18,617 nucleotides of DNA. It comes from Bacillota bacterium (lineage in GTDB: Bacteria; Bacillota_A; Clostridia; Peptostreptococcales; Anaerovoracaceae). Positions 15,962-16,984 of this stretch are shown here, piece by piece. Positions within the stretch are counted from its first letter, which is position 1, and every line of letters begins with the position of its first letter. Both the position numbers and the translations under genes were made by a program. The notes beneath the pieces are model-generated. The model was not told the origin of the DNA and did no database searches. It saw only the letters and a program-made list of their open reading frames with translations. The DNA is taken from NCBI GenBank assembly GCA_017437925.1, contig JAFRWQ010000131.1:1-18617 (forward strand). Direction: 5' to 3'.

Positions 15962-16984
<1,023 letters not shown>

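Follow-up and report, generated by a model that had tools for sequence, protein, structure and literature searches.

A TAG codon inside an otherwise ordinary pheS frame

The window, by which we mean the whole stretch of 18,617 nucleotides that was analysed, carries on its forward strand a frame for the alpha subunit of phenylalanine--tRNA ligase (pheS; 15962..16984, +), which comprises 340 codons plus TAA and contains a single internal TAG. The frame opens at ATG 15962, preceded by a GGAGG, and closes at TAA 16982-16984. The internal TAG lies at 16721..16723 (+) and is codon 254, occupying the position of the Glu of FPFTEPS, such that the frame is divided into two ORFs of 253 aa (15962-16723) and 82 aa (16736-16984). 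Directly 3' of pheS lies the beta-subunit gene pheT (16997..18617, +), which starts at ATG 16997 and runs off the window with no stop inside it; its portion 16997-18616 scores 569.1 bits with TIGR00472, for which the cut-off is 402.65. The gene at 15143..15940 (+), which encodes a putative TrmH/SpoU-type RNA methyltransferase (trmH), ends in TAG.

Both pieces of pheS belong to the same profile. Residues 40-253 of the 253-aa piece match TIGR00468 positions 3-247 (4.8e-58; 196.9 bits) and the piece after the TAG matches positions 249-322 of 324 (1.3e-29; 103.5 bits), these scores being those of the pieces and not of a read-through protein, each alone below the whole-protein cut-off of 237.45 bits; together the two account for the profile along the gene. 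Position 248 is the only one absent between them, and therefore the TAG is not a chance ORF end. Motif 3 (residues 305-314), as we presume it to be from the usual naming of class II synthetase motifs, lies downstream of the TAG, so that, with a stop at codon 254, motifs 2 and 3 do not share a single open frame.

The first-pass annotation had described an in-frame TAG at the Glu of FPFTEPS in a gene with a normal TAA end and an intact pheT start, and this description holds for the frame 15962-16984. It had also called both flanks fully conserved, which agrees with the profile match on either side but not with codon 249, a Leu unlike the residues of the relatives read. Compared with a bacterial PheRS alpha subunit of a pheS-pheT pair, the gene is alike in its full-length sequence, start, normal end and downstream pheT, and differs in the in-frame TAG at a Glu that all relatives read conserve and in the Leu at codon 249.

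Codons 254 and 249 in relatives

The Glu that precedes PSAE is present in 120/120 proteins (the best 120 of 7998 scored homologues) and at 108 of 111 loci, a set that includes L081-L083 from the same genomes as L001-L003; the other three loci (L062, L017 and L041) gave no motif match and were left unread. Thus, the comparison with close relatives at this codon that had been proposed earlier returned Glu in every relative read. The two closest pheS genes, in genomes G210 (91% identical along the entire gene) and G163 (91% within residues 1-287), both encode Glu at the site, as do five solved PheS sequences, and among the matches listed, short PheS database fragments that reach the site carry Glu in 75 cases and Ser in 1. 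A pheS match was obtained in 280 of 296 genomes of the family, and no internal stop in pheS was seen in the 150 rows listed from these 296 genomes (counted by eye). In 47 of the 296 (also counted by eye), the best pheS match reaches only 1e-45 to 1e-80, as against about 1e-130 to 1e-168 in most, which points to PheS of a divergent lineage or to genes that are incomplete.

Further searches for the interrupted form were negative within their scope. Neither a 253-aa protein nor one identical to the 82-aa piece appeared among the 120 listed of 313 matches and the 120 listed of 1495, in a protein database clustered at 90%, where truncated copies might hide in the cluster of P0001, which makes this a weak search for a replicate. 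Plasmid records gave 22 matches, all 60-80% identical and none covering 80% of the query. The sequence pattern around the site had 0 matches in viral contigs, an uninformative result, and the literature listings consulted held nothing useful on the PheRS residue or on stops in assemblies. One database protein, P0124, departs from the PheS frame just after FPFTEP, as if this conserved block had suffered a frameshift there as well.

Codon 249 (CTC, Leu; 16706..16708, +) is the second odd position. The corresponding residue is His in 113 and Phe in 7 of the best 120 proteins, and His in 59, Phe in 32, Tyr in 13 and Asn in 4 of the 108 loci, and H249L was never seen among these relatives. The changed bases, 16707 (H249L) and 16721 (TAG), are 14 apart, with H249L upstream, and two damaging-looking changes this near each other suggest a local fault. 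By itself this clustering is weak, because pheS has five private amino-acid changes and, by our estimate, two of them would lie no more than five codons apart about 1 time in 4. A local template switch as the source of the odd bases was considered and rejected: the best match of the 24-mer elsewhere in the window is 17/24, and 60 random 24-mers gave 15 to 18.

A probable consensus error and the quality of the contig

The preferred explanation, to which we assign a probability of roughly 0.8, is an ordinary pheS whose internal stop stems from a consensus or assembly error. Judged from sequence comparison, the TAG is most likely such an error rather than a novel reading of the genetic code, and the fault would belong to the sequence rather than to the cell. 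The pheS of this uncultured Clostridia bacterium, which the names of its database matches relate to Anaerovoracaceae, would thus carry a wrong consensus base at 16721, probably owing to low or mixed-strain coverage of a conserved block in which short-read assemblies become tangled. This reading is favored because the relatives read have Glu and no stop, conservation extends on both sides of the TAG and reaches the regular TAA end, and pheT meets no stop before the window's edge; the second private change, H249L, 14 bases upstream and an assembly break of G163 in the same block point the same way. PheRS is essential, and a strict stop would therefore be lethal in a cell with no other copy. A base error in the reads or assembly had been the first choice of the first-pass annotation, and it is now the best-supported option, given that every relative read has Glu and that other window genes terminate in TAG. 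More generally, when an essential gene on a contig from an uncultured organism holds a lone in-frame stop, recoding should be claimed only once reads support that stop.

Evidence for such trouble comes from the assemblies of relatives. In G163, pheS is split: contig C180 (locus L112) stops where window base 16823 would be, contig C178 (L118) starts at the position of 16714, and the two ends overlap by about 110 bases while differing at several of them. The overlap being non-identical, two strains were assembled there, with the break on the conserved pheS block. Genome G070 has an extra partial pheS copy on another contig. This shows that the block troubles assemblies of this lineage, which does not thereby prove the case of the window itself. 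In 60-base bins along pheS, the identity to relatives does not change in any clear step, and a strain junction within the gene was rejected accordingly.

What speaks against a consensus error is that the rest of the contig has no error signature. Private changes at columns invariant among relatives number 1/130 in pheS (the TAG itself; 39 relatives), 0/139 in pheT (37 relatives), 2/132 in ftsZ (16 relatives), 3/132 in murD (10 relatives) and, with 3 relatives only, 10/152 in a PBP gene; mraZ, rsmH and ftsL had one relative each for this comparison, and hflX, yigZ and the gene at 1940-2596 had none. From ftsZ to pheT, base-level private changes amount to 76/2511 in the window, a rate near that of the relatives (L114, 52/2361; L112, 32/1483; L118, 29/1091), and transversions account for 45/76 of them, compared with 28/52, 21/32 and 16/29, respectively. 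A generally poor contig is thus unsupported by both the invariant-column counts and the base-level rate, and since the contig is not generally bad, room is left for a real allele. As a feature of codon usage in the window, whose GC content is 57.5%, ATA makes up 227 of the 394 Ile codons across the genes at 3-18616.

Alternatives in which the TAG is real

A genuine nonsense allele, either tolerated through a second PheRS gene or present as a minor or dying variant that the consensus happened to catch, is the alternative that survives best, although we regard it as rather unlikely. The contig is clean elsewhere, and amino-acid-changing private bases at invariant residues are commoner in the window (23/2511 sites) than in the three relatives (9/2361, 8/1483 and 7/1091). 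Additionally, 12 of the 296 family genomes (counted by eye) have two pheS matches, which might indicate a second gene, but the three of them examined do not bear this out: in G163 a single gene is divided between two contigs of different strain variants, the second match of G070 is the partial copy described above, and the extra copy of G210 lies on contig C36 (locus L116), where the order ftsZ-trmH-pheS is kept at 69% identity to the window. This second stretch in G210 is probably another species in the bin. The intact state of the adjoining pheT also argues against a nonsense allele.

Decoding of the TAG as sense, whether as pyrrolysine, by means of a suppressor tRNA or through programmed readthrough, would make the amount of PheS depend on TAG decoding; it is unlikely here, and we give it very little weight. 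Still a shade less credence goes to its most specific form, in which the TAG is real and is decoded in vivo through pyrrolysine or a suppressor tRNA acquired by the strain, with amber decoding gating the supply of an essential synthetase. Were it so, a synthetase in control of how an ordinary codon is used would in turn depend on stop-codon decoding. We know of no synthetase dependent on stop decoding, as far as a literature check limited to listings goes. The idea has some ground: the frame stays intact past the TAG, PylS (PylS_Cterm) exceeds the cut-off in 42 of the 296 genomes (for example at loci L124-L128), and amber-interrupted genes in this family consequently merit a case-by-case look. 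Pyrrolysine methyltransferases are reported in Anaerovoracaceae (PMC10653893). The window's gene resembles the methylamine methyltransferases, whose amber codons are read as pyrrolysine by means of pylS/pylT, in being a conserved gene with a TAG inside its frame and in belonging to a family in which PylS occurs commonly; it differs in that its product is no methylamine methyltransferase, that PylS does not exceed the cut-off in the five closest genomes, and that the relatives have Glu at the site instead of TAG.

The use of TAG elsewhere in the window weighs against decoding. Among 16 intact gene ends, with the pheS TAG excluded, TAA occurs 8 times, TAG 6 times and TGA 2 times, so TAG is neither rare nor absent as a true terminator. 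Four of the six genes that terminate in TAG had relatives for comparison, and in these relatives the genes finish at the same residue or close to it. The TAGs of mraZ and rsmH stand at the same residue in L112. At the end of ftsZ, TAG is found in the window and L112 and further on in L115, whereas L114, L113 and L001 have TAA; at the end of trmH, the TAG of the window is replaced by TGA in L112, L114 and L113 and by TAA in L001 and L115. If the TAG of trmH were read, translation would run in frame into pheS as far as the pheS TAG, and reading that of mraZ would carry it through to the end of rsmH.

The decoding machinery of the closest relatives points in the same direction. RF1 is over the cut-off in 5/5 of the closest genomes and PylS in 0/5, the completeness of these genomes not being given. 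In G163, none of the 40 tRNAs called by ARAGORN has a CTA anticodon (41 tRNA matches, the 41st being partial at a contig end and uncalled), and the window's own four tRNAs also lack one; these four are the only Rfam hits at the gathering score in the window. A CTA pattern for class I tRNAs, which covers neither class II tRNAs nor tRNA-Pyl, gave 7 matches in the five closest genomes, consisting of 4 tRNA-Arg(TCT) and 3 non-tRNA sequences. Programmed readthrough finds no better footing: RNA folding over the 100 bases from 16715 does not surpass that of shuffled sequences (z -0.04), much as in the stop-free relative L114 (z -0.15), giving no sign of a structured RNA just after the stop, and the stop is not conserved, with Glu in all relatives read. 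The checks proposed at the outset for prfA, pylS and a tRNA with a CTA anticodon therefore came out with RF1 present in all five closest relatives, PylS in none and no such tRNA among those called in G163, and the amber suppression or readthrough considered there fits poorly with them and with the six TAG-ended genes.

Finally, the proposal of two peptides that assemble into one enzyme, the second restarting at the in-frame ATG at 16736..16738 (+), 12 bases past the TAG, is scarcely credible, as the 20 bases before this ATG hold no GGAGG-like (Shine-Dalgarno-like) site, in which it differs from pheS and pheT, and as the cut would fall within a strictly conserved motif. The Met that matches ATG 16736 is the start of 27 of the 120 listed short PheS fragments (P0146-P0265), some of them on contigs longer than 20 kb; it is probably the first Met that gene callers meet after cuts or frameshifts.
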